From: Candidatus Thiodubiliella endoseptemdiera
Lineage (GTDB): Bacteria > Pseudomonadota > Gammaproteobacteria > PS1 > Pseudothioglobaceae
Assembly: GCA_013416635.1 (NCBI GenBank)
Contig: JACCHT010000002.1
Coordinates: 434,001-498,000, forward strand
Length of the DNA: 64,000 nucleotides
Reading direction: 5' to 3'
The notes under the pieces are model-generated. The model saw nothing but the letters and a program-made list of their open reading frames with translations, was not told where the DNA came from and did no database searches. Of this stretch, positions 11,032 through 25,336 are shown one piece after another. The position numbers and the translations under genes are program-made. Within the stretch, counting starts at the first letter, position 1, and the number at the start of each line of letters is the position of its first letter.

Positions 11032-14250
<3,219 letters not shown>

Positions 14251-14270
<20 letters not shown>

Positions 14271-14630
14271 TAATTGGATAATCCTCGGGCAAAATCACCC
14301 CTTTCTCCAAGGCAATTTTCACCACCTCTTCCCCTCTAAATTGCGTTGGGTTCTGCATCAATTCCGTCTGCCAAAAACTGTGCATCTCACACATCTGCGG
14401 ATGCGTATGATTACACCCCAACACATGAAAACTCGCCTCACCCACACGCCAAGGCCCATCCCCTTAATTTCCCCCTCAATCAAATGAATACTATATTCAG
14501 GCTCTTTTTCCCAAAACAATTCAAAATACAAAATACCTTTTGGATGCTGAAAAATTGCCTCAATCACTCGGGTCTCTCCGTTTGGGTATTTGATGTATAG
14601 GGGTGAGTGTAAAGTAAATATTTTATTCAT
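14251..14630 (-). CDS. Conserved hypothetical protein, one-base frameshift
   Basis: The two frames are 14358-14630 (NKIFTLHSPLYIKYPNGETR to IEGEIKG) and 14251-14445 (GEASFHVLGCNHTHPQMCEM to INDARYQ). A second, more decayed copy at 19744-20123 shows the missing base: it has GGGCGATGGGCC where this copy has GGGGATGGGCC (about 14460-14463). Restored, the protein has about 125 residues with GCNHTHPQMCEMH, a possible metal-binding cluster. No family is recognised. It leads the ABC-tgt operon. Confidence 0.6.
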
Positions 14631-14668
14631 TATAGTGCCGTTTTTTGGCGTGGTAAATTGTTGGGGTT

Positions 14669-15535
14669 TTATAGGTCTCTATTTAAAATATTTCTTAAAT
14701 CTAAATTTTTTAATGAATTACTAAAAAATAATATTTCGTTACCTTCTTTTGCTCTATATGCAGAATGATTAAAAGAGTATTTTTTAATAAATTTAGAAGA
14801 AATCCAATTATATATTTTTTCTATTTCCAAAGTATTATCATAAGAGACAATCCAATTTATATTTCTTATATTTTTAATTACCTCTGCCACCTCTTTATGT
14901 TGGTTATTTTTATAGTAATTCATATACAAAGAAGAAGCTTTTAAATAATAAGGAGGGTCAAAATAAAAAATTGTTTGATTGTTATCAGATTCTTTTTCTA
15001 TTTTTTTAATGAGCTTTAAGGCATCAAGATTATAAAGTTTTATTTGTTTTTTATGCTTAGCAATTAACTTGATTCTTTTGATAAGTTCTTTTTTATTAAA
15101 ACGACAATCTATTTTATATTTTCCATTTTGACCTGGTCCACCAATTACACCAGCATTTATAATTCCTGAAAAATTTGTTCTATTGAGAAAAAAAGTAGAA
15201 AAACCCAAATCCAAGAGATTTTCTTTTGATTTATTTTTTTGTATATTTTTTGCCTTTTGCCAATTCTCAATATTTATTTCTGTATTTTCAATTAAATCAC
15301 AAAGTTTTTTTGTATTTCTTAATACGGAATGCCAAAAAGCATAAATAGAACGGTCAAAATCATTAATGGTAATTTTATCTACTTTATCTTCTAATAATAA
15401 ATATAAGGCCACTGAAGCCCCCCCAGCATATGGCTCAACATAATGCCCTTTTATATCATTATCAATGCAAACTTTTGATATAAATTTAGACAGTTTATTT
15501 TTTCCTCCTGGGTATCTTAATGGTGAGTAAAACAT
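14669..15535 (-). CDS. D12-class DNA N6-adenine methyltransferase
   Basis: The 288-residue protein starts SPLRYPGGKNKL and has the S-adenosylmethionine motif EPYAGGA (34-40) and the catalytic DPPY (193-196), the order typical of the alpha-type D12/Dam family. It would methylate adenine in a short DNA site, perhaps GATC-like but not predictable here. Its start lies 3 bp after the stop of the ATPase gene, so it is the last gene of a three-gene operon. The coding sequence is much more AT-rich, with abundant AAA/AAT codons, than the neighbouring tgt and ABC genes, which suggests horizontal acquisition. Its likely job is to protect host DNA or to set the modification state sensed by its partners. 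Confidence 0.88.
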   Translation of the reverse strand: MFYSPLRYPGGKNKLSKFISKVCIDNDIKGHYVEPYAGGASVALYLLLEDKVDKITINDFDRSIYAFWHSVLRNTKKLCDLIENTEINIENWQKAKNIQKNKSKENLLDLGFSTFFLNRTNFSGIINAGVIGGPGQNGKYKIDCRFNKKELIKRIKLIAKHKKQIKLYNLDALKLIKKIEKESDNNQTIFYFDPPYYLKASSLYMNYYKNNQHKEVAEVIKNIRNINWIVSYDNTLEIEKIYNWISSKFIKKYSFNHSAYRAKEGNEILFFSNSLKNLDLRNILNRDL

Positions 15536-15538
15536 AAT

Positions 15539-17092
15539 CTAAAATTTATTAAATAAATTATCAAAATTTAAAAGAAAATCATCAACGAGTTCTTTGTTTT
15601 GTTTTTTCCATGGATTTAATACTTTACTTGCATTGCTATTGCTTCCCCATAATGGCAAATGAGAATTAAACCACTTTTTTGCCTTATCTCTATCATCTTG
15701 TACTTCTTGATTTGAATAATCCCTAAAGCAATATTGCCTCGTAAATGTATTGTCTATTTTTTGCCATAATTGATCAGATTCAGGTAAATTATTAAGAAAG
15801 TTAGAAATAATTTGTTCGAGTGAGTTTTCTGTAGGGAGTAGTAGAATATTTCCAATCTTATTAGCTTTGTTTCGTTGTTCAATATCACCATCAAGCATAA
15901 TAATTGAATTTGGAAATTGAAAGGAGGGAACTTTTGGGGCTAATTCAATAAGGTTATTGCAACCAAATTTTACTTTAGGATAGAATTTTAAGTGCTTCGT
16001 GCGACTATTTCCTAATAATGATTTTGCAAAAATAACCGCTTCAGAATCTTCTGTAAAAATATCGATTTTGTTTATTGTAGTTTTTCCAGTCAAGGCTACA
16101 TTAAGGTGGTTTTTTATAAACTCATAATTAACACTATCTTTAATAATAATCTTTTGATCTTCTTTTTTTAAATAAACCAGCTTTATTTGATTTTTTCTGT
16201 CCTCGTTTTCTTGAAGTTTTGACGCTTCTTTTAATAAAGTTAAAGAATGTGTTGTAAATATAATTTGAATATCAAAATCAGATACAAAACGATTCAAAGC
16301 ATCTAATAGTTTCATCTGTGAACCAGGATAAAAAGTCGTATCAATTTCATCTATAGCTAAAATTCCTCCTTTATAATCGTTTTTATATTCTTTTTTTAGA
16401 CGTTTAAAAGAAAGTATTGCAAGTAGTATTTTCCCTATATTGTCTTGTCCTGCTGAATTTGATTGCCAATCGTAATAAGGGGTATTTGCTCCTAGTGTTT
16501 GTTTATCTATACTTGACAGAGATGTCGGACTAATTTTTTCATCCCCAAGAATAAGTATTTTATTGTGCCACTTTTCATAAAAATTTTTTTCATCATCTGT
16601 TAGTTCTAAAGATTTATTTTCACTTAGTTTATTGTCTTCACCTATTGGTAACAACCTTTTTAAACTAAGATAAATAACTGGTAATTGAACAAATCCAGAG
16701 CCTTTACTTTTATCGGGCTTACCAGTTTTTTTGTTTACTTTCCATATGCGAATTTCACCTTCTTTCTTTCCGCCTCTATTTATACTTCCAGCAGTATAAT
16801 CAGAATCATCATCAAAAAATAATGTCCATTTATGCCCTCCAATCTTATCAAATCTTTTGGATAGTTTAAACTTATCAGAAAATGCTGATTTAAAATCCCC
16901 ACCAGATAATGGTTTTTCTCCATACATTGGATTATCTTTATCTGTTATTGTAAATGGCTGTGTCAACAACCCAAGAAGGGTTGTCTTTTGAGTTCCATTT
17001 TGTCCAGAAATTACTGTCAAATGTGAGCCAAGTTCAAATTCAACATTTTCAAAGCCCCTAAATTTCTCAATTAATATTTTTGTTATTTTCAT
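15539..17092 (-). CDS. OLD-like ABC-ATPase with C-terminal TOPRIM-type region
   Basis: I choose the ATG at 17092 (MKITKILIEKFRGF), 2 bp after the upstream gene; an ATG at 17116 is possible. The 517-residue protein has Walker A GQNGTQKTT (30-38), a signature-like NSAGQDN (212-218), Walker B ILAIDEID (244-251) and a switch His in FTTHS (279-283). The C-terminal part has TEDSE (347-351), an LDGD motif (400-403) and LPTENSLEQ (419-427), the E...DxD pattern of OLD-family TOPRIM nucleases. By family, such proteins are nucleases or sensors in phage defence (OLD, Gabija GajA, PARIS). The ParB-like and methyltransferase partners suggest a modification-linked defence system. The catalytic assignment is from motifs only. 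Confidence 0.8.
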   Translation of the reverse strand: MKITKILIEKFRGFENVEFELGSHLTVISGQNGTQKTTLLGLLTQPFTITDKDNPMYGEKPLSGGDFKSAFSDKFKLSKRFDKIGGHKWTLFFDDDSDYTAGSINRGGKKEGEIRIWKVNKKTGKPDKSKGSGFVQLPVIYLSLKRLLPIGEDNKLSENKSLELTDDEKNFYEKWHNKILILGDEKISPTSLSSIDKQTLGANTPYYDWQSNSAGQDNIGKILLAILSFKRLKKEYKNDYKGGILAIDEIDTTFYPGSQMKLLDALNRFVSDFDIQIIFTTHSLTLLKEASKLQENEDRKNQIKLVYLKKEDQKIIIKDSVNYEFIKNHLNVALTGKTTINKIDIFTEDSEAVIFAKSLLGNSRTKHLKFYPKVKFGCNNLIELAPKVPSFQFPNSIIMLDGDIEQRNKANKIGNILLLPTENSLEQIISNFLNNLPESDQLWQKIDNTFTRQYCFRDYSNQEVQDDRDKAKKWFNSHLPLWGSNSNASKVLNPWKKQNKELVDDFLLNFDNLFNKF

Positions 17093-17094
17093 AA

Positions 17095-18486
17095 TTATTT
17101 TTTTAAAGGTTTCCAAAGAATTTCAAAAAACTCTTCTAAATTATCCCATTTTAATTTCAAATCACTAGATGCCGATTGTGTTTTATAAGAATGAACATAG
17201 CGATGAAAGTTTTGAATGGATAATAAATTGTTTTGATTATTTGCAACAACTTTTATATTTTTTAACTGTTTATCATTCGCTAAGTCTTCCTCTTCCATGT
17301 ATTTATACACTTCTTTTATTTTTTCTGAAAACTTAGTACTAGGTGTAAAAGTCTTTCCTTTTTTTTCCCAAAAATAATCAATACTTGTTTCTAAAAATAC
17401 TCTAAATAAAACTCCTACAGCATTTGGAACTGCTTTTGTTGAGTCATCAATAAGCAGGCCACCTTTAAGTTCGTGATAAATATTATTAATTTTTGTTTCT
17501 TCAATGTCTAAACGACATGTTTTTGGGATGAGATATTTTCTCGTAGTACTTGGAGGGTTTATTTTCACATTATTATTTTTAGTAATATCGGTTATTTTTT
17601 CTCCAAATAAATTATCTGTTGTATTTTCTTGAATTTCTTTATCTACTTTTTTAGAATCATTACTTTTGATTGATGCCAAGTATGTTTTCTTTTCTTGCCC
17701 TGTGTTTAAAGTACGAGAATCAAGTTTATTTCCAGAAAAATCTTCTTTTTTTAAAATACTCAAAATTATCACTTTTAATTCTTCTGGAAAGTTTGAATTT
17801 TTAATTTCCAAATCTCCATTATCTTTTAAACTAAAACCATATTTTGTATATGCCTCTTTACTGTCTAAAATACGCCAAAAAGTCGTAACATATCCTCGCC
17901 CTAACACTTGCTCCTTTAATGTTTCTGGAATATCTAAATTTTTAATTATTCTGGCAATTGCAACTTTGAACTCTTCTTTTTTTGTAGCACTTCCTACACG
18001 CACATTGTGATTTGTTCTTTCTTGCTCACTCCAGCTAACTTCATTATTTCCATTTAAATGTTTTCTGGCTATATAACGAAAACCCTCAGATTTATTAGTT
18101 GTGATAAGGCAATCGAATAAATAACTATCATTAATATTGATTTCTTTTTTTAATTCTGTAAATTTCTTTTTTAAAATATTGTTTGGAGCAAGGCTTGGAT
18201 TATTCAACATTTTATATACAGTTAAACGACGATTACCTTCTAAGACAACCATATTTTTGTCTATATTATAAATAACTAATCTTTCTAGTTGTGGCAAATC
18301 AAAATCTTTTACAATTTCTTTCGCAAATTCTTTAATCTTAAAATCTTTTTTGGAGCAAAAATATTGAATTAATTCTGGTTCAGATTTACTAAAATAGTTA
18401 TCAGGAAAACGAGCATTTTCATCCCATAATAATAAATCCTTTAATAATATTTCTTCTTTTCTCCACTTATTATTTGATTTTTCCAT
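17095..18486 (-). CDS. ParB/Srx-like domain protein with helical C-terminus
   Basis: The 463-residue protein has a ParB-type N-terminal domain: LLLWDENARFPDN (18-30), then VVLEGNRRLTVYKML (80-94), whose EGNRR matches the nucleotide-binding/nuclease box of ParB-like proteins. A low-complexity charged linker (about 260-320) follows. The C-terminus is all-helical (NAVGVLFRVFLETSIDYFW and NFHRYVHSYKT), of a type I cannot name but reminiscent of HEPN-like domains. No partner ParA or parS is seen, so plasmid partition is unlikely. It heads the operon with the ATPase and the methyltransferase; a MITE lies 19 bp upstream of its start and may cover or replace its promoter. Function unknown; DNA sensing or cleavage is inferred. 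Confidence 0.75.
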   Translation of the reverse strand: MEKSNNKWRKEEILLKDLLLWDENARFPDNYFSKSEPELIQYFCSKKDFKIKEFAKEIVKDFDLPQLERLVIYNIDKNMVVLEGNRRLTVYKMLNNPSLAPNNILKKKFTELKKEININDSYLFDCLITTNKSEGFRYIARKHLNGNNEVSWSEQERTNHNVRVGSATKKEEFKVAIARIIKNLDIPETLKEQVLGRGYVTTFWRILDSKEAYTKYGFSLKDNGDLEIKNSNFPEELKVIILSILKKEDFSGNKLDSRTLNTGQEKKTYLASIKSNDSKKVDKEIQENTTDNLFGEKITDITKNNNVKINPPSTTRKYLIPKTCRLDIEETKINNIYHELKGGLLIDDSTKAVPNAVGVLFRVFLETSIDYFWEKKGKTFTPSTKFSEKIKEVYKYMEEEDLANDKQLKNIKVVANNQNNLLSIQNFHRYVHSYKTQSASSDLKLKWDNLEEFFEILWKPLKK

Positions 18487-18505
18487 AATATTTCCTTAAT
18501 TATTA

Positions 18506-18666
18506 GAGACCTTTGCATAAATAGGGATGATTAGCAAAATGACAGATTTTATTAAATTGGAAATTTTTTAAATCCACTCCTAGCAGGGCTAAGGGTGTTT
18601 TTAAAAAGTTTGTAATTTGATGAAAGATGGCGTTTTGATGATTATTCATATTTATGCAAAGGTCTC
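18506..18666 (-). mobile_element. 161-bp MITE-like element, reverse orientation (copy 4)
   Basis: The copy is full length with perfect inverted ends and target duplication TATTA on both sides. It sits directly upstream of the ParB-like gene and marks the edge of the AT-rich operon. Confidence 0.95.
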
Positions 18667-18928
18667 TATTAATTACCAAAAAAAACTCAACTCTCTTTAT
18701 TCCCCCGCTTCTCAAACTCTTTCGCAATATCTTTCAGAGGGAATAATAAAGGATAAGGGCTACCCTTTTTTAGGTCTGCCAACCTTCTTAAACCTTAAAT
18801 TTCTGCCAGTTATCTGACCAAAATTAGCAATAAAATAATCACTGCCACACAAGCGACCACTTATAAACATTACACCTCAAAATATCTAGGCTTTTTTGAT
18901 TCTCATCCATCGTCAAATAATATTCATA
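18667..18928. other. Non-coding debris between MITE copy 4 and the hsdM remnant
   Basis: No intact gene is seen. On the minus strand short pieces such as DENQKSLDIL and FPLKDIAKEFEKRG are readable between stops, so this is probably decayed coding DNA of the same restriction-modification locus. Confidence 0.4.
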
Positions 18929-18985
18929 TCATTTTAACTCAATCACTCCATTTTTTGCTTGATAAATTGCCAGTTTTTTAATCAT
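18929..18985 (-). pseudogene. N-terminal remnant resembling a RhuM-family protein
   Basis: An 18-codon frame overlaps the hsdM stop (ATGATTAA) and reads IKKLAIYQAKNGVIELK before a stop. This resembles the beginning of RhuM-like proteins, which are often encoded inside type I restriction-modification loci. Only the first residues remain, so the assignment is tentative. Confidence 0.35.
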
Positions 18986-19597
18986 TGCTTAATGCGGTTT
19001 GTAATTGGGTTAACAAGTCATCACTTTTGCTAAAAGACTGGTTCATTTTTAGCAATAACGCCTCACTGGAATATTGCTTTTCAGCTTCTGGTTGGTGTGG
19101 ATTTTTAATGTCTAAATTGTAGCTGTTGTCTTGAATGGTTTTTATATCCACCTGCCATGCAACTTCATTTTCTTTGCGGTTGTGCCACCATTTTTTTAAC
19201 CCTTCAAACTCGGATAATTGTATTGGTTTAGTTTTGGAATAAGTCTTATAATTTTCGGGCAGTTTGTGTTCAAAATACCAAATTTTTTTGGGTGGGTTTG
19301 CCTTTGTCAAAAAATAACAAATTAGTGGCTACTGAAGCATAAGGTTGAAACACCGAATTGGGCAAACGAACAATGGTGTGTAGATTACAATCTTCTAACA
19401 ATTTTTGACGAATGCGTTGTTTAACGCCATCTCCAGTAAGTGATCCATCAGGCAGGACAATCGCCGCTCTGCCCTCTATTTTGAGCAAATGTATCATTAA
19501 AATCAGAAACAAACCGGCTGATTCCTTGGTGCGATAAGTTTTTGGGAAATTATTTTCGTTATTATTGGACACCACACTACCAAACGGTGGATTAGCC
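18978..19597 (-). pseudogene. 3' remnant of a type I restriction-modification methylase (HsdM)
   Basis: The fragment begins LANPPFGS, the catalytic motif IV of N6-adenine methyltransferases, and continues ESAGLFLILMIHLLKIEGRAA and VLPDGSLTGDGVKQRIRQ, typical of the HsdM core. The N-terminal two-thirds is missing: a degenerate MITE abuts the motif at 19598. A seven-T run at 19283-19289 shifts the frame; correcting it joins KGKPTQK to IWYFEHKLPENYKTY. The HsdM C-terminus ends at 18978. No hsdS or hsdR is present. The locus is clearly dead. Confidence 0.85.
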
Positions 19598-19740
19598 AGG
19601 GATAATTAGCAAAATGCCAGATTTTATTAAATTAGAAATTTTTTAAATCCAATCCTAGCAAGGTTAAGGGTGAATTTAAAAAGTTTTTAAGTTGATGAAA
19701 GATGGTGTTTTGATGATTATTCATATTTATACAAAGGTCT
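19598..19740 (-). mobile_element. Degenerate, end-truncated copy of the 161-bp element
   Basis: About 143 bp align to the reverse-orientation element from AGGGAT to the AAAGGTCT end, with roughly ten substitutions. The left terminal repeat is missing and joins hsdM sequence directly. This is the only clearly old copy in the window. Confidence 0.8.
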
Positions 19741-19743
19741 TAT

Positions 19744-20123
19744 TTAATATTGTTTGTCATTCACTGGATAATTCTCAGGCAAAATTGCCCCTTTCTCCAA
19801 AGCAATCTTTACCACTTCTTCATTTCTAAATTGTGCTGAATTCTGCATCAATTCCGTCTTTCAAAAGCTATGCATTTCACACATTTGCGGATGCGTATGA
19901 TTACACCCTAATACATGAAAACTTGCCTCACCTACACGCCAAGGCCCATCGCCCTTAATCTCACCCTCAATCAAATGAATGCTATACTGCGGATTTTTTT
20001 TCCCAAAACAACTCAAAATACAACACCCCTTTTTGGATGTTCGAACAACTCCTCAATTACTCGCGTTTCCCTATTTGGATATTTGATATACAGCGGTGAA
20101 CGCAGAGTGAATATTTTACTCAA
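19744..20123 (-). pseudogene. Decayed second copy of the 14.3-kb hypothetical gene
   Basis: The minus strand reads SKIFTLRSPLYIKYPNRETRV, then shifts frame at least twice (extra bases near the AAAAAGGGG and AAAAAAAA runs) before IEGEIKGDGPWRVGEASFHVLG and the terminal NDKQY. It is plainly homologous to the gene at 14251-14630 and lacks its ATG; a TTG is at 20123. It keeps the base that the other copy has lost. Together the two copies flank the AT-rich operon and the hsdM debris as direct repeats. Confidence 0.8.
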
Positions 20124-20306
20124 GACCTTTGCATAAATAGGAATAATTATCAAAAATCCACTTTTCACTCACTTGACAATTTTTTAAACCCTGCCTTGCC
20201 ACTACTAGAAGTAAGTTTAAGAAAATCACCAATTAGCATTTTTTTCAATACTCTTGAGGGTAAAAATTGAATTTTACTAATCATCTCTATATTATGCAAA
20301 AGTCTC
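20123..20306. mobile_element. Second, diverged palindromic element of about 184 bp
   Basis: The ends, AAGACCTTTGCATAAATA and ATTATGCAAAAGTCTC, match the 161-bp element's inverted repeats, but the interior is different and longer (for example CTTTTCACTCACTTGACAAT). A second copy of this interior lies at 22893-23045. It is a related, older subfamily without coding capacity. Confidence 0.7.
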
Positions 20307-20559
20307 TACAAAAAGAATTAATTTAGCGATTGAGCATTTAATATCCGTTCAGAATATAGCTGAATTAAAGAAAGTAACTTAAAATGTGTCCAGGTTTGTA
20401 GGACTATTGCACTAAAGCACCAATCCCGACAAATAGTTACCTAACTCGTTTAAAATACCTGCTAATTATCACTTACCCAAACATCGGAGATGGGCGCAGG
20501 TGTTGCCTGTGAATACCTAATTCTTTGAATAAAAAAATGCCTACAAGTATTCATTAATT
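20307..20559. other. Non-coding stretch between the two element types
   Basis: No gene is seen. A short plus-strand frame ending LAIEHLISVQNIAELKKVT before a stop at about 20380 may be the tail of a lost gene. The rest is broken by stops in all frames. Confidence 0.4.
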
Positions 20560-20720
20560 GAGACCTTTGCATAAATATGAATAATCATCAAAACGCCATC
20601 TTTCATCAAATTACAAACTTTTTAAAAACACCCTTAGCCCTGCTAGGAGTGGATTTAAAAAATTTCCAATTTAATAAAATCTGTCATTTTGCTAATCATC
20701 CCTATTTATGCAAAGGTCTC
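20560..20720 (+). mobile_element. 161-bp MITE-like element, forward orientation (copy 5)
   Basis: The copy is full length with perfect ends. The flanks are TAATT and AATTT, which do not form a 5-bp duplication, unlike most other copies; this suggests that recombination exchanged one flank. Confidence 0.93.
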
Positions 20721-20724
20721 AATT

Positions 20725-21235
20725 TTAGTAAATTTTAACGATGTTATTTATTTTATTAAAAATTGAATTGGATTTTGAGTTAAGTATAAACACTGTCCAA
20801 ATATCCTGAAAGGCGGTAACGGAAATCGCGTCTAAATCTCGTTTAAGTTTCCAAAAGAGTGTGGCTGAGTCTTGTTCGGATTGATAGTCTATCGTAGTGA
20901 GCCGTACTCCAGTACCGCCTGGTAGGTCTTTTCCTAGAAATATGAATACAGCAACATCTCCTTCAGCCCAAGCCCAGTTAGGAGCATCCATAGTAGATGA
21001 CATATCATGCCAAAAATCTTGCCATTCTTGGGCATTTTTCATAACGGCAAAGCGAGATGAGTTATTGACTTGAGTATCAAAAATCCAGTTTTGACGAATA
21101 TACTCGGGTGTTATTTCAAGGATTTGATTATTCATATTTTTTTGTTCAAAACTATTGGTGTTTATGGCATAAGTCACATTGTTTCTACAAATAAAACAGC
21201 AGCAATAGTGCTGCTGTTTTTGCTAACTTTAGCAA
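20725..21235 (-). pseudogene. PrcB-like secreted protein, copy 1, broken signal peptide
   Basis: The mature part reads ILEITPEYIRQNWIFDTQ, FAVMKNAQEWQDFWHD and VAVFIFLGKDLPGGTGVRL, resembling the PrcB C-terminal domain found with secreted subtilases. The signal peptide (TTG at 21235, LLKLAKTAALLLLFYL) hits a stop because the bases after TTTTATTT differ from copy 2; the frame resumes at TYAINTNS. It follows the subtilase stop by 3 bp, so the two genes form a unit. The 161-bp element at 20560-20720 ends 4 bp beyond its stop. The domain call is from memory of the motif pattern. Confidence 0.6.
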
Positions 21236-21238
21236 CGC

Positions 21239-22651
21239 TTAAGCTTCCAAAACGATTTGATCGTTATATTCGTTTTGGTGTGTTTCTAGATAAGTCACAG
21301 CATTCGCAAGATTAATCTTTGTATAGCCAACAGGAGAACTAGGCGTTGGATTCGGTGATACGACATCACTCAAAGTTAAAGTTAAGTCATAAGTACTGGT
21401 AAACCCCTTATTGTAACCATCGTAATAATCTACTCCTACATAATAAGTACTGGTAAACCCCTTATTGTAACCATCGTAATAATCTACTCCTACATAATAA
21501 GTACCTGCATCCAATGTTTTTTGATAACCAATATCAACACTGCCCCACTCCCAACCGTTGTGAAGCGATTTACCGCTACTATCATAAAGGTTTAAGTCTA
21601 CATCGGAAGATAAGTTAGACAATAAGAAATCAACCTTGCCATTAGCACTCAACTCAAACTGAAAAAAGTCTTTATCGTCTGTTCCCTTAGTCACTGAATC
21701 TTGTAATAATTTAGCACCATTACTCAAAGTACCTAACTTATTGGCTGTTGCTATTGTGCCATCTGAATCAGGTGTCGGCACATGAGTCTCTGGTTCTGGT
21801 GTCTGCACCAAAGTGTCTTTATTAAATAAAGTTGTATCTGTAGTTGTTGTATCTGTAGTTGCAGTTGTTGCACCTTCATTAATGGTATACCCGCCTACTT
21901 TATCGCCAGTTTTTTGGATTAGATCTAAGAATTCTTCATCGGTTAATTTATGCCCTAATAAATCTATTGCTGCTTCTTGCAGGACTGCAGCAGAACCTGC
22001 AATAGTTGGCGCAGAAAAACTAGTGCCTGAAATTGAGTGTGCAATACCATTATTGTCAATCACATTGATATTTTCACCTAAGGCAGCAACATCAGTTAAA
22101 TCCTTATGCTGTTGCGAGAAACTGGTAAATTCACCATCCGCATTAGTAGCAGAAACTGAAATAACACTCTCACTAGAAGCCAAAAGATTAACACCGTCAC
22201 AACTATAAGATGCCTTACTGTTACCTGAAGCAACGGTAACAATCACACCTTTGTCGTCAAGTACCTGATATTCATCAGAACCTAACCAAGTAGTTGGCGT
22301 TTGTACATTGCCCAAACCCAAGGATAAATTAACTGCAGTAATACTATAAGCATCTGTGTTGGCAACCACCCATTGTAATGCTTTTTCAATATCAGAATTA
22401 TACGCACCTGATGAGCCATCTGAAAATACTTTTAAATGAATAATTTTAACACCAGAAGCCACATTTTGAGCAACATTCGCAACTTGTCCACCATGATTAC
22501 CGCCACTATTTATTGCGTCGTTGTCGTTGTCTGCAAAATCATAAGAATAAACAACATTGCTGTTAGTGTAACTAGTTGAAATACCTTGATCAATTATAAC
22601 GATGGTTTGCCCAGCACCTGTATATTTACCTGTGTAATTATCTAATTCCAT
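21239..22651 (-). CDS. Subtilisin-like serine protease (S8) with PPC domain, copy 1
   Basis: The 470-residue protein has catalytic Asp21 (IIDQG), His53 (GNHGGQV), oxyanion Asn in VASGNS (about 141-145) and the catalytic Ser of SGTSFSAP (211). One pre-peptidase C-terminal (PPC) domain follows (GTIATANKLGTL to TLTLSDV), then a short tail ending IVLEA. There is no N-terminal signal peptide or propeptide; the first residues are already the protease domain. Relative to copy 2, a deletion fused the linker after LVQT to the second PPC unit, and an 18-residue stretch ending NKGFTST is tandemly doubled. A GGAG ribosome-binding site precedes the ATG. Possible roles are secretion by a signal-less route or an intracellular protease. 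Confidence 0.88.
   Translation of the reverse strand: MELDNYTGKYTGAGQTIVIIDQGISTSYTNSNVVYSYDFADNDNDAINSGGNHGGQVANVAQNVASGVKIIHLKVFSDGSSGAYNSDIEKALQWVVANTDAYSITAVNLSLGLGNVQTPTTWLGSDEYQVLDDKGVIVTVASGNSKASYSCDGVNLLASSESVISVSATNADGEFTSFSQQHKDLTDVAALGENINVIDNNGIAHSISGTSFSAPTIAGSAAVLQEAAIDLLGHKLTDEEFLDLIQKTGDKVGGYTINEGATTATTDTTTTDTTLFNKDTLVQTPEPETHVPTPDSDGTIATANKLGTLSNGAKLLQDSVTKGTDDKDFFQFELSANGKVDFLLSNLSSDVDLNLYDSSGKSLHNGWEWGSVDIGYQKTLDAGTYYVGVDYYDGYNKGFTSTYYVGVDYYDGYNKGFTSTYDLTLTLSDVVSPNPTPSSPVGYTKINLANAVTYLETHQNEYNDQIVLEA
21390..21497 (-). repeat. 54-bp tandem duplication inside subtilase copy 1
   Basis: Two identical 54-bp units (21390-21443 and 21444-21497) encode the 18 residues YYVGVDYYDGYNKGFTST twice in frame. 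Copy 2 of the gene has single units, so this is a recent slippage or unequal-exchange event. Confidence 0.93.
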
Positions 22652-22731
22652 AATTTTATCTCCATTATTGTTAAGTTAGAAAAGATTATACACTATTTTT
22701 TTAAGACTTTTTCATAAATTTTATGCAAATA

Positions 22732-22892
22732 GAGACCTTTGCATAAATATGAATAATCATCAAAACGCCATCTTTCATCAAATTACAAACTTTTTAAAAA
22801 CACCCTTAGCCCTGCTAGGAGTGGATTTAAAAAATTTCCAATTTAATAAAATCTGTCATTTTGCTAATCATCCCTATTTATGCAAAGGTCTC
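22732..22892 (+). mobile_element. 161-bp MITE-like element, forward orientation (copy 6), nested
   Basis: The copy is full length, with target duplication AAATA on both sides. Its flanks rejoin into the older 184-bp element (left piece from about 22702, right piece 22893-23045), so it inserted into that element. Confidence 0.93.
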
Positions 22893-23045
22893 AAATAGAG
22901 ATGCTTATCAAAAATTCACTTTTCACCTACTTGACGATTTTTTAAATCCTGCCTTATCTCTGCTAGAACTGAGTTTAAGAAAATCACCAATTGAGCATTC
23001 TTATCAACACCTTTTTTTGAGGGGTAAAAATTGAATTTTACTAAA
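22893..23045. mobile_element. Right part of a disrupted 184-bp-type element
   Basis: The sequence from TTATCAAAAATTCACTTTTCAC to AATTGAATTTTACTA matches the interior at 20123-20306. Its left end is separated by MITE copy 6, with a degenerate terminus near 22702. Its right terminus is missing and is replaced by duplicated PrcB-like sequence, which marks the duplication junction. Confidence 0.65.
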
Positions 23046-23277
23046 TATCATGCCAAAAATCTTGCCATTCTTGGGCATTTTTCATAACGGCAAAGCGAGA
23101 TGAGTTATTGACTTGAGTATCAAAAATCCAGTTTTGACGAATATACTCGGGTGTTATTTCAAGGATTTGATTATTCATATTTTTTTGTTCAAAACTATTG
23201 GTGTTTATGGCATAAGTCACATTGCCTACAAAATAAAACAGCAGCAATAGTGCTGCTGTTTTTGCTAACTTTAGCAA
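23041..23277 (-). pseudogene. PrcB-like secreted protein, copy 2, C-terminus lost
   Basis: A TTG start at 23277, 3 bp after the subtilase stop, gives an intact signal peptide (LAKTAALLLLFYFVGNVTYA) and the first half of the PrcB-like domain up to EWQDFWHDI. It is then cut by the remnant of the 184-bp element. Copy 1 has the opposite damage, so neither locus has a complete gene as written. Confidence 0.65.
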
Positions 23278-23280
23278 CGC

Positions 23281-25068
23281 TTAAGCTTCCAAAACGATTT
23301 GATCGTTATATTCGTTTTGGTGTGTTTCTAGATAAGTCACAGCATTCGCAAGATTAATCTTTGTATAGCCAACAGGAGAACTAGGCGTTGGATTCGGTGA
23401 TACGACATCACTCAAAGTTAAAGTTAAGTCATAAGTACTAGTAAACCCCTTATTGTAACCATCGTAATAATCTACTCCTACATAATAAGTACCTGCATCC
23501 AATGTTTTTTGATAACCAATATCAACACTGCCCCACTCCCAACCGTTGTGAAGCGATTTACCGCTACTATCATAAAGGTTTAAGTCTACATCGGAAGATA
23601 AGTTAGACAATAAGAAATCAACCTTGCCATTAGCACTCAACTCAAACTGAAAAAAGTCTTTATCGTCTGTTTCCTTAGTCACTGAATCTTGTAATAATTT
23701 AGCACCATTACTCAAAGTACCTAACTTATTGGCTGTTGCTATTGTGCCATCTGAATTAGGTGTCGGCACAGGAGTCTCTGGTTCTGGAGCAGGAGACACA
23801 TCACTCAAAGTTAAACTCAAATCATAAGTGCTAGTGACTCCTTTATTGTAACCATCGTAATAATCTACTCCTACATAATAAGTACCTGCATCCAATGTTT
23901 TTTGATAACCAATATCAACACTGCCCCACTCCCAACCGATGTGAAGCAATTTACCGCTACTATCATAAAGGTTTAAGTCTACATCGGAAGATAAGTTAGA
24001 CAATAAGAAATCAACCTTGCCATTAGCGCTCAACTCAAACTGAAAAAAGTCTTTATCGTCTGTTTCCTTAGTCACTGAATCTTGTAATAATTTAACACCT
24101 GCGGTTAATGCACCAATTTTTTGAGCGGTTAGAATTGTGCCATCATCTACAACAAGCCCTGGGTCAGTTTTAGGAATAATAACTTGTGGCACCTCTACTG
24201 CCGCCCCTGCTGATTGTGTCTGCACCAAAGTGTCTTTATTAAATAAAGTTGTATTTGTAGTTGTTGTATTTGTAGTTGTAGTTGTTGCACCTTCATTAAT
24301 GGTATACCCGCCTACTTTATCGCCAGTTTTTTGTATTAGATCTAAGAATTCTTCATCGGTTAATTGATGCCCTAATAAATCCATTGCTGCTTCTTGCAGG
24401 ACTGCAGCAGAACCTGCAATGGTTGGCGCAGAAAAACTAGTGCCTGAAATTGAGTGTGCAATACCATTATTATCAATCACATTGATATTTTTACCTAAGG
24501 CAGCAACATCAGTTAAATCCTTATGCTGTTGCGAGAAACTGGTAAATTCACCATTCTCATTAGTAGCAGAAACTGAAATAACACTCTCACTAGAAGCCAT
24601 ATAATTAACACCGTCATAACTATAAGATGCCTTACTGTTACCTGAAGCAACGGTAACAATCACACCTTTGTCGTCAAGTGCCTGATATTCATCAGAACCT
24701 GACCAAGTAGTTGGCGTTTGTACATTGCCCGAACCCAAGGATAAATTAACTGCAGTAATATTATAAGCATCTGTGTTGGCAACCACCCATTGTAATGCTT
24801 CTTCAATATTAGAAGAATACGCAACTGATGAGCCATCTGAAAATACTTTTAAATGAATAATTTTAACACCAGAAGCCACATTTTGAGCAACATTCGCAAC
24901 TTGTCCACCATGATTACCGCCACTATTTATTGCGTCGTTGTCGTTGTCTGCAAAATCATAAGAATAAACAACATTGCTGTTAGTGTAACTAGTTGAAATA
25001 CCTTGATCAATTATAACGATGGTTTGCCCAGCACCTGTATATTTACCTGTGTAATTATCTAATTCCAT
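23281..25068 (-). CDS. Subtilisin-like serine protease (S8) with two PPC domains, copy 2
   Basis: The 595-residue protein has the same protease domain as copy 1 (Asp21, His53, Asn144, Ser211), then a Thr-rich linker (ATTTTTNTTTTNTT), two PPC domains (about residues 310-410 and 430-540) joined by a PEPETPVPTPNSDG spacer, and a C-terminal tail ending IVLEA. PPC domains usually assist secretion or substrate binding and are cut off extracellular proteases. There is no signal peptide; secretion through a C-terminal signal is possible but not shown. It is probably the ancestral form of the pair. The leader upstream carries a MITE at 25149. Confidence 0.9.
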   Translation of the reverse strand: MELDNYTGKYTGAGQTIVIIDQGISTSYTNSNVVYSYDFADNDNDAINSGGNHGGQVANVAQNVASGVKIIHLKVFSDGSSVAYSSNIEEALQWVVANTDAYNITAVNLSLGSGNVQTPTTWSGSDEYQALDDKGVIVTVASGNSKASYSYDGVNYMASSESVISVSATNENGEFTSFSQQHKDLTDVAALGKNINVIDNNGIAHSISGTSFSAPTIAGSAAVLQEAAMDLLGHQLTDEEFLDLIQKTGDKVGGYTINEGATTTTTNTTTTNTTLFNKDTLVQTQSAGAAVEVPQVIIPKTDPGLVVDDGTILTAQKIGALTAGVKLLQDSVTKETDDKDFFQFELSANGKVDFLLSNLSSDVDLNLYDSSGKLLHIGWEWGSVDIGYQKTLDAGTYYVGVDYYDGYNKGVTSTYDLSLTLSDVSPAPEPETPVPTPNSDGTIATANKLGTLSNGAKLLQDSVTKETDDKDFFQFELSANGKVDFLLSNLSSDVDLNLYDSSGKSLHNGWEWGSVDIGYQKTLDAGTYYVGVDYYDGYNKGFTSTYDLTLTLSDVVSPNPTPSSPVGYTKINLANAVTYLETHQNEYNDQIVLEA

Positions 25069-25148
25069 AATTTTATCTCCATTATTGTTAAGTTAGAAAA
25101 GATTGTACACTATTTTTTTAAGACTTTTTCATAAATTTTATGCAAATA

Positions 25149-25309
25149 GAGACCTTTGCATAAATATGAATAATCATCAAAACGCCATCTTTCATCAAAT
25201 TACAAACTTTTTAAAAACACCCTTAGCCCTGCTAGGAGTGGATTTAAAAAATTTCCAATTTAATAAAATCTGTCATTTTGCTAATCATCCCTATTTATGC
25301 AAAGGTCTC
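25149..25309 (+). mobile_element. 161-bp MITE-like element, forward orientation (copy 7)
   Basis: The copy is full length with perfect ends. The left flank AAATA is the same as that of copy 6 because it belongs to the duplicated block; the right flank AATTT differs, so there is no target duplication. The sequence TTTATATAAAGGTCT just beyond (25312-25326) looks like one more worn terminal repeat. Confidence 0.93.
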
Positions 25310-25336
25310 AATTTATATAAAGGTCTTTATTTGTTA

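Follow-up and report, generated by a model that had tools for sequence, protein, structure and literature searches.

We analysed a three-gene operon in a 64,000-nt stretch of DNA from Candidatus Thiodubiliella endoseptemdiera (contig JACCHT010000002.1, positions 434,001 to 498,000; hereafter the window, to which all coordinates refer). The operon lies on the minus strand, from 18486 to 14669, and judging from its sequence it appears to be a variant of the anti-phage system PD-λ-5 that has an ATPase as a third component, a reading to which we assign a probability of about 0.6. Its outer genes match the two PD-λ-5 components, and the gene between them encodes an OLD-family ABC ATPase with a predicted TOPRIM nuclease site. 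The same trio occurs in many distant bacteria with its genes in shuffled order, a recurrence that points to the nuclease as a third component of the system, so far unlisted.

Both PD-λ-5 components occur in one operon with a third gene

The operon consists of three intact open reading frames (ORFs) in the order ParB-like protein, ATPase and methylase (Table 1), separated by 2 bp (TAA-TT-ATG) and 3 bp (TAG-ATT-ATG). An alternative ATPase start proposed by the ORF finder, TTG at 17116, would run into the ParB gene, and the ATG at 17092 was used. The G+C fraction of the trio is 0.272, compared with 0.403 in the left 5 kb, 0.348 in the right 5 kb and 0.376 in the whole window. The tight spacing and the AT-richness had both been described in an initial annotation made from the sequence alone, and both are borne out. 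A promoter scan stayed at background level (27 found versus 25.2 expected). Chance or an annotation artefact was considered as an explanation of the trio and ruled out, since the trio recurs widely and a congener shares the precise three-gene block.

PADLOC profile PDLC03998 (PD-Lambda-5_A) covers residues 10-459 of the 463-residue ParB-like protein (E 4.1e-73), and PDLC04018 (PD-Lambda-5_B) matches the methylase of the same operon (E 2.3e-115), with the ATPase gene in between. Moreover, the ParB-like protein has a Vibrio phage homologue deposited as PD-Lambda-5_A. For the ATPase, PADLOC v2.0.0 holds no PD-Lambda-5 model. Because this third gene intervenes between A and B and the combination of ParB-like gene, methylase and ATPase is present in 27 other loci, we file the operon as a variant rather than as plain PD-λ-5, which has two genes. 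The initial annotation had proposed a defence-type, modification-linked module, which is supported at family level. It had also known no named system with this trio; that no longer holds for the first and third genes but stands for the second, which PADLOC does not list as part of the system.

Mrr attacks adenine-methylated DNA, so the use of an mrr-deleted cloning host for PD-λ-5 fits an active adenine methylase. PD-λ-5 came from a functional selection in E. coli, the cloning host having its mrr region deleted; of the ten phages in the panel all but one were affected, and the system was characterised as a compacted prophage version of a restriction-modification plus abortive infection (RM+Abi) system (Vassallo et al. 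2022, PMC9519451). Anantharaman et al. (2013, PMC3710099) had pointed out fusions of ParB with HEPN, as well as operons that combine HEPN, ParB and DNA methylase genes. By description, the fusion Saro_3948 and the operon MAE_28990 have the same domain combination as the operon studied here, whereas the passages of that paper on which we draw mention no OLD-TOPRIM ATPase. No paper describing the trio was found in the literature searched, which may have missed an earlier description.

The middle gene encodes an OLD-family ATPase with a predicted TOPRIM site

With the AlphaFold model of the ATPase (predicted local distance difference test, pLDDT, 89.2) as query, Foldseek placed the OLD nuclease 6p74 first (E 3.3e-14), followed by the retron Eco8 complex 9lpa and GajA. 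The ABC motifs (Walker A, an S-x-G-x-D signature, Walker B and the H-loop THS) are invariant or nearly so among 36 homologues, as are the TOPRIM E, D and D-x-D. A profile alignment (hhalign) of the ATPase with OLD-TOPRIM proteins from other genomes ran over the full length (Prob 99.8, E 7e-27) and set E353 of T-E-D on the Glu of the OLD V-E-G, and D406/D408 (DGD) on the OLD D-x-D (DLD); these residue numbers come from the homologue alignment and are 5 higher than those counted from the ATG. Both the ABC motifs and a C-terminal TOPRIM pattern had been read from the translation initially, and the latter is borne out by its register with the OLD residues. When structural matches were ranked by VIA, SMC heads dominated and the matches covered residues 1-340 only; therefore, the TOPRIM claim rests on residue conservation and profile alignment. 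At E 0.1, the Pfam families reported for the 36 ATPase members did not include OLD-like_TOPRIM.

The best PADLOC match of the ATPase is the retron ATPase-Toprim_I-B profile (E 2e-21). OLD nucleases, Gabija GajA and the retron I-B (Eco8) effector share the order of an ABC ATPase followed by TOPRIM and are its nearest folds. However, the partners here are a ParB-like protein and a methylase rather than a GajB-type helicase, and all three genes are assigned, none of them to the reverse transcriptase of a retron. PARIS likewise combines an OLD-type ABC ATPase with a TOPRIM-type nuclease, but it has neither methylase nor ParB, and the operon has no separate AriB gene; the PADLOC AriA/AriAB profiles match the ATPase weakly (AriA E about 2e-15). 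PDC-M38 also gave weak PADLOC matches only, and the name was not found in the literature searched. The remaining relatives are prophage and integrative-element pairs in which a homologous ATPase (about 28-35% identity) stands beside a D12 methylase. In contrast to the window ATPase, theirs is about 575 aa long and has no ParB-like gene beside it; it matches PHROG 3940, and no system name was found for the pairs.

The flanking genes encode a ParB-like protein with a HEPN-like end and a D12 methylase

The AlphaFold model of the ParB-like protein (pLDDT 78.9; matches ranked by VIA) has an N-terminal domain that resembles ParB CTPases (Z about 8) and SspE (Z 5.8). The EGNRR box reported for this gene is present, and its G-N-R-R is invariant across 23 ParB-like proteins. 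The C-terminus, initially described as helical and unnamed, looks HEPN-like in the model: its best VIA matches are the HEPN proteins YutE, AF0298, a HEPN toxin and MntA-HepT, at Z 8-9, where Z 13 is advised for helical bundles. H432 of this HEPN-like domain is conserved, and many members have an Asn four residues upstream, recalling the HEPN R-N-x3-H motif; R362 and E366, on a helix other than that of H432, are invariant or nearly so. In the alignment of ParB-like proteins, no conserved Arg precedes H432 by 5-7 residues, as the canonical RX4-6H motif would have it, and RNase activity of the domain is therefore uncertain. A Pfam scan of the window protein found neither ParB_N nor HEPN, and phmmer gave no match to it in PDB.

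The third gene matches Pfam MethyltransfD12 (E 6.9e-21). The EPYAGG and DPPY motifs pointed out initially are both there, and EPxxGG and DPPY are invariant among 8 divergent methylases. It is the sole homologue found in the assembly.

The trio recurs in distant bacteria and its parts are modular

A scan of 84,980 species genomes with the ATPase alignment yielded 80 loci, and partner genes were counted in flanks of up to 6 kb on each side of the ATPase. In the close ATPase clade (34 full-length members, 31 distinct sequences), all 34 loci carry a D12 methylase and 27 also carry a ParB-like gene (24 of the 31 distinct ATPases); the trio thus co-occurs elsewhere, in Bacteroidota, Pseudomonadota and other groups. 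Among the 37 loci of the distant clade, a methylase accompanies the ATPase in 31 and a ParB-like gene in one. The corresponding counts for viral loci are 63 and 6 of 77; finding these loci required the alignment as query, as single-protein queries with the window ParB and ATPase gave no matches in viral contigs.

At least four gene orders are found among the trios: ParB-ATPase-methylase, ATPase-ParB-methylase, ParB-methylase-ATPase, and an ATPase facing a methylase-ParB pair. The arrangements require 16 changes over 11 states on the ATPase tree, and yet the gene set stays together. The arrangement in the window forms one well-supported ATPase clade of six, shared with a congener, Pasteurella atlantica and three flavobacterial records. 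In another genome (G022), a methylase 86% identical to that of the window adjoins a ParB only 22% identical. The parts of the trio are modular.

Two smaller samples were also examined. Among 369 gammaproteobacterial genomes, PD-Lambda-5_A matches occurred in 16 and the ATPase in 3; a second set of 345 genomes, drawn around a Pedobacter, gave ParB matches in 11 and the ATPase in 6, and both of its trios belong to genomes already known from the larger scan. Most PD-λ-5 loci lack the ATPase, including that of the nearest ATPase-free relative (G065), and the ATPase is therefore optional to PD-λ-5.

Other gene combinations were seen in passing. At two loci (L044, 7596-12258; L049, 7587-12143), the ATPase occurs with a HerA-like helicase (PF01935 E 2e-12 in L044), a NurA-like protein recognised by eye and a D12 methylase, with no ParB. 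Three others (L223, L220 and L192) hold a different trio, of a D12 methylase, a ParB-like protein of about 370 aa that lacks the HEPN-like end, and a QCK-motif protein of 300-330 aa that may be PD-(D/E)XK-like; a Pfam scan of the L223 protein gave no match. A search of E. coli DNA turned up ATPase-methylase pairs and no PD-λ-5; two of these pairs, of integrative-element or prophage type (L258, 2430-5079; L259, 2424-5136), offer a convenient laboratory relative.

Covariation suggests a matched methylase-ParB pair with an exchangeable nuclease

Mantel tests on the identity matrices of 26 trio loci (2000 permutations, host relatedness uncorrected) gave a correlation of 0.53 for methylase and ParB, which none of the permutations reached (partial 0.52). 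The values were 0.20 for ATPase and methylase (46/2000; partial 0.14) and 0.17 for ATPase and ParB (42/2000; partial 0.07). Covariation of methylase and ParB in which the ATPase barely takes part is expected of a modification and a recognition component that are matched to each other, with a third part that can be exchanged. On the available sequences, the trio is best read as such a matched pair with an interchangeable OLD-TOPRIM effector.

We infer the following order of events. The D12 methylase would mark adenines at a specific site in host DNA, and the ParB/Srx-HEPN-like protein would recognise the same or an overlapping site, engaging when it is unmodified, as on incoming phage DNA. Engagement would set off the effector, namely the HEPN-like domain and, in this variant, the OLD-type ATPase-TOPRIM nuclease, with restriction or abortive infection as the outcome. 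The ATPase, not being tied to one target sequence, could plug into different methylase-reader pairs. A more far-reaching reading, which we put at somewhat below even odds, is a three-component defence whose interchangeable OLD-TOPRIM nuclease is under the control of the sequence-matched methylase/ParB-HEPN pair. This would be one case of a general design, in which a D12 methylase and a ParB-like reader are combined with varied effectors (HEPN-like, OLD-TOPRIM or putative PD-(D/E)XK-like), or a D12 methylase with HerA/NurA-type partners.

Several points weigh against reading the operon as a three-component variant of PD-λ-5. The correlations may carry a share of host relatedness, for which no correction was made. 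The ATPase covaries weakly with both partners, giving no sign of direct contact. In the gammaproteobacterial sample, only one of about 13 PD-Lambda-5_A/methylase loci has the ATPase, and it is that of the window, while G065 has a 55% identical ParB yet no ATPase. Additionally, for a helical domain the HEPN scores (Z 8-9) are modest, and the Arg of the canonical catalytic motif is absent.

The strongest rival explanation is that the ATPase-TOPRIM and D12 methylase form an independent module that merged with PD-λ-5 through the shared methylase, leaving two systems with separate responses and no joint mechanism. The scant covariation of ATPase and ParB would follow from it, ParB-free ATPase-methylase pairs are common in phages, integrative elements and plasmids and are carried by E. 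coli, and at L044 and L049 the ATPase sits with HerA-like and NurA-like genes and a methylase. However, methylase sharing alone would not keep ParB in 27 of 34 close-clade loci through many changes of gene order, and we consider this explanation unlikely.

A guard role for the ATPase seems less likely again. PARIS, whose OLD-ABC/TOPRIM protein senses Ocr, has been read as a backup effector alongside restriction-like systems (PMC12839542). By this precedent, the ATPase would sense phage anti-restriction inhibition of the methylase/ParB core, and its TOPRIM nuclease would then abort infection, which would suit an ATPase that is interchangeable between cores. Most ATPases of the distant clade, however, accompany a lone methylase, which leaves nothing else to guard.

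If the favoured proposal of a matched pair and an exchangeable nuclease is right, the OLD-TOPRIM nuclease would be a tractable effector and a handle on PD-λ-5, which has a wide protection range and for which no mechanism is published in the papers found. The covariation predicts that the ParB domain reads the site that the methylase modifies, so that a role of ParB-like proteins in modification-linked defence becomes testable. The third component goes undetected by tools that define PD-λ-5 as a two-gene system.

Table 1. Features of the operon and its upstream boundary, in window coordinates
Feature	Position	Strand	Basis
ParB/Srx-HEPN-like protein, PD-Lambda-5_A, 463 aa	17095..18486	-	PADLOC; AlphaFold model with ParB CTPase and HEPN matches
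ParB/Srx-like domain, model residues 3-165, EGNRR box at 18240-18226	17992..18480	-	VIA Z 8.1 to Myxococcus ParB 7bnr; SspE 6jiv Z 5.8
C-terminal HEPN-like domain, residues 327-463	17098..17508	-	VIA Z 8.9 to YutE 1ylm, 8.6 to HEPN 2hsb, 8.2 to HEPN toxin 7ae6, 8.0 to MntA-HepT 6m6u
OLD-family ABC ATPase with predicted C-terminal TOPRIM, 517 aa from the ATG at 17092	15539..17092	-	Foldseek, hhalign
Predicted TOPRIM acidic residues, T-E-D (E codon 16051-16049) and D-G-D (15892-15884)	15884..16051	-	Conservation in 36 homologues; alignment to OLD V-E-G and D-x-D
D12-class N6-adenine DNA methyltransferase, PD-Lambda-5_B, 288 aa	14669..15535	-	PADLOC; Pfam MethyltransfD12
EPYAGG codons	15419..15436	-	
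DPPY codons	14948..14959	-	
Palindromic repeat (miniature inverted-repeat transposable element, MITE-like), about 168 bp; boundary of the module, not part of it	18506..18673		Ends about 20 bp upstream of the ParB ATG

The operon lies in a variable, repeat-rich site

A congener (G011) has the trio elsewhere on its chromosome, and the DNA shared with the window, at 80% identity, covers the three genes and no more (window 14720-18455). Two congeners carry other genes at the site that the trio occupies in the window, between recX/recA and the gene at 14.3 kb, and the block 14647-25324 is thus a variable spot. This mobility, and the position in a repeat-rich variable spot beside recX/recA, would suit a stabilisation or addiction module of mobile DNA, in which ParB-HEPN and the ATPase would cleave the cell's own DNA once the methylase is lost. 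PD-λ-5, however, was selected and validated as phage defence, and any system of this kind may bring about addiction as a by-product; we regard addiction as a very improbable primary role.

Next to the trio lies an hsdM-like N-6 DNA methylase (18978-19575; N6_Mtase PF02384 E 4e-21), broken and bordered by a repeat; the hsdM debris noted initially is accordingly real, as a fragment. A short gene at 14267-14640 is repeated directly at 19757-20120 (86%), flanking the trio and the hsdM debris. Copies of a palindromic repeat of about 150-170 bp, with ends GAGACCTTTGCATAAATA, occur at 18506-18673, 19598-19748, 20113-20235 and 20553-20727. The 2.37-Mb assembly holds 284 forward and 287 reverse half-sites of this repeat, compared with 0 for a reversed-pattern control; it is a large MITE-like expansion. 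Further along, 21239-22651 and 23281-25068 are near-identical tandem subtilisin-like ORFs, as read from their translation. On the other side of the trio, tgt (11373-12477) and an ABC transporter gene (12467-14270; 593-597 aa in congeners) are each split into two ORFs, by either sequence errors or decay.

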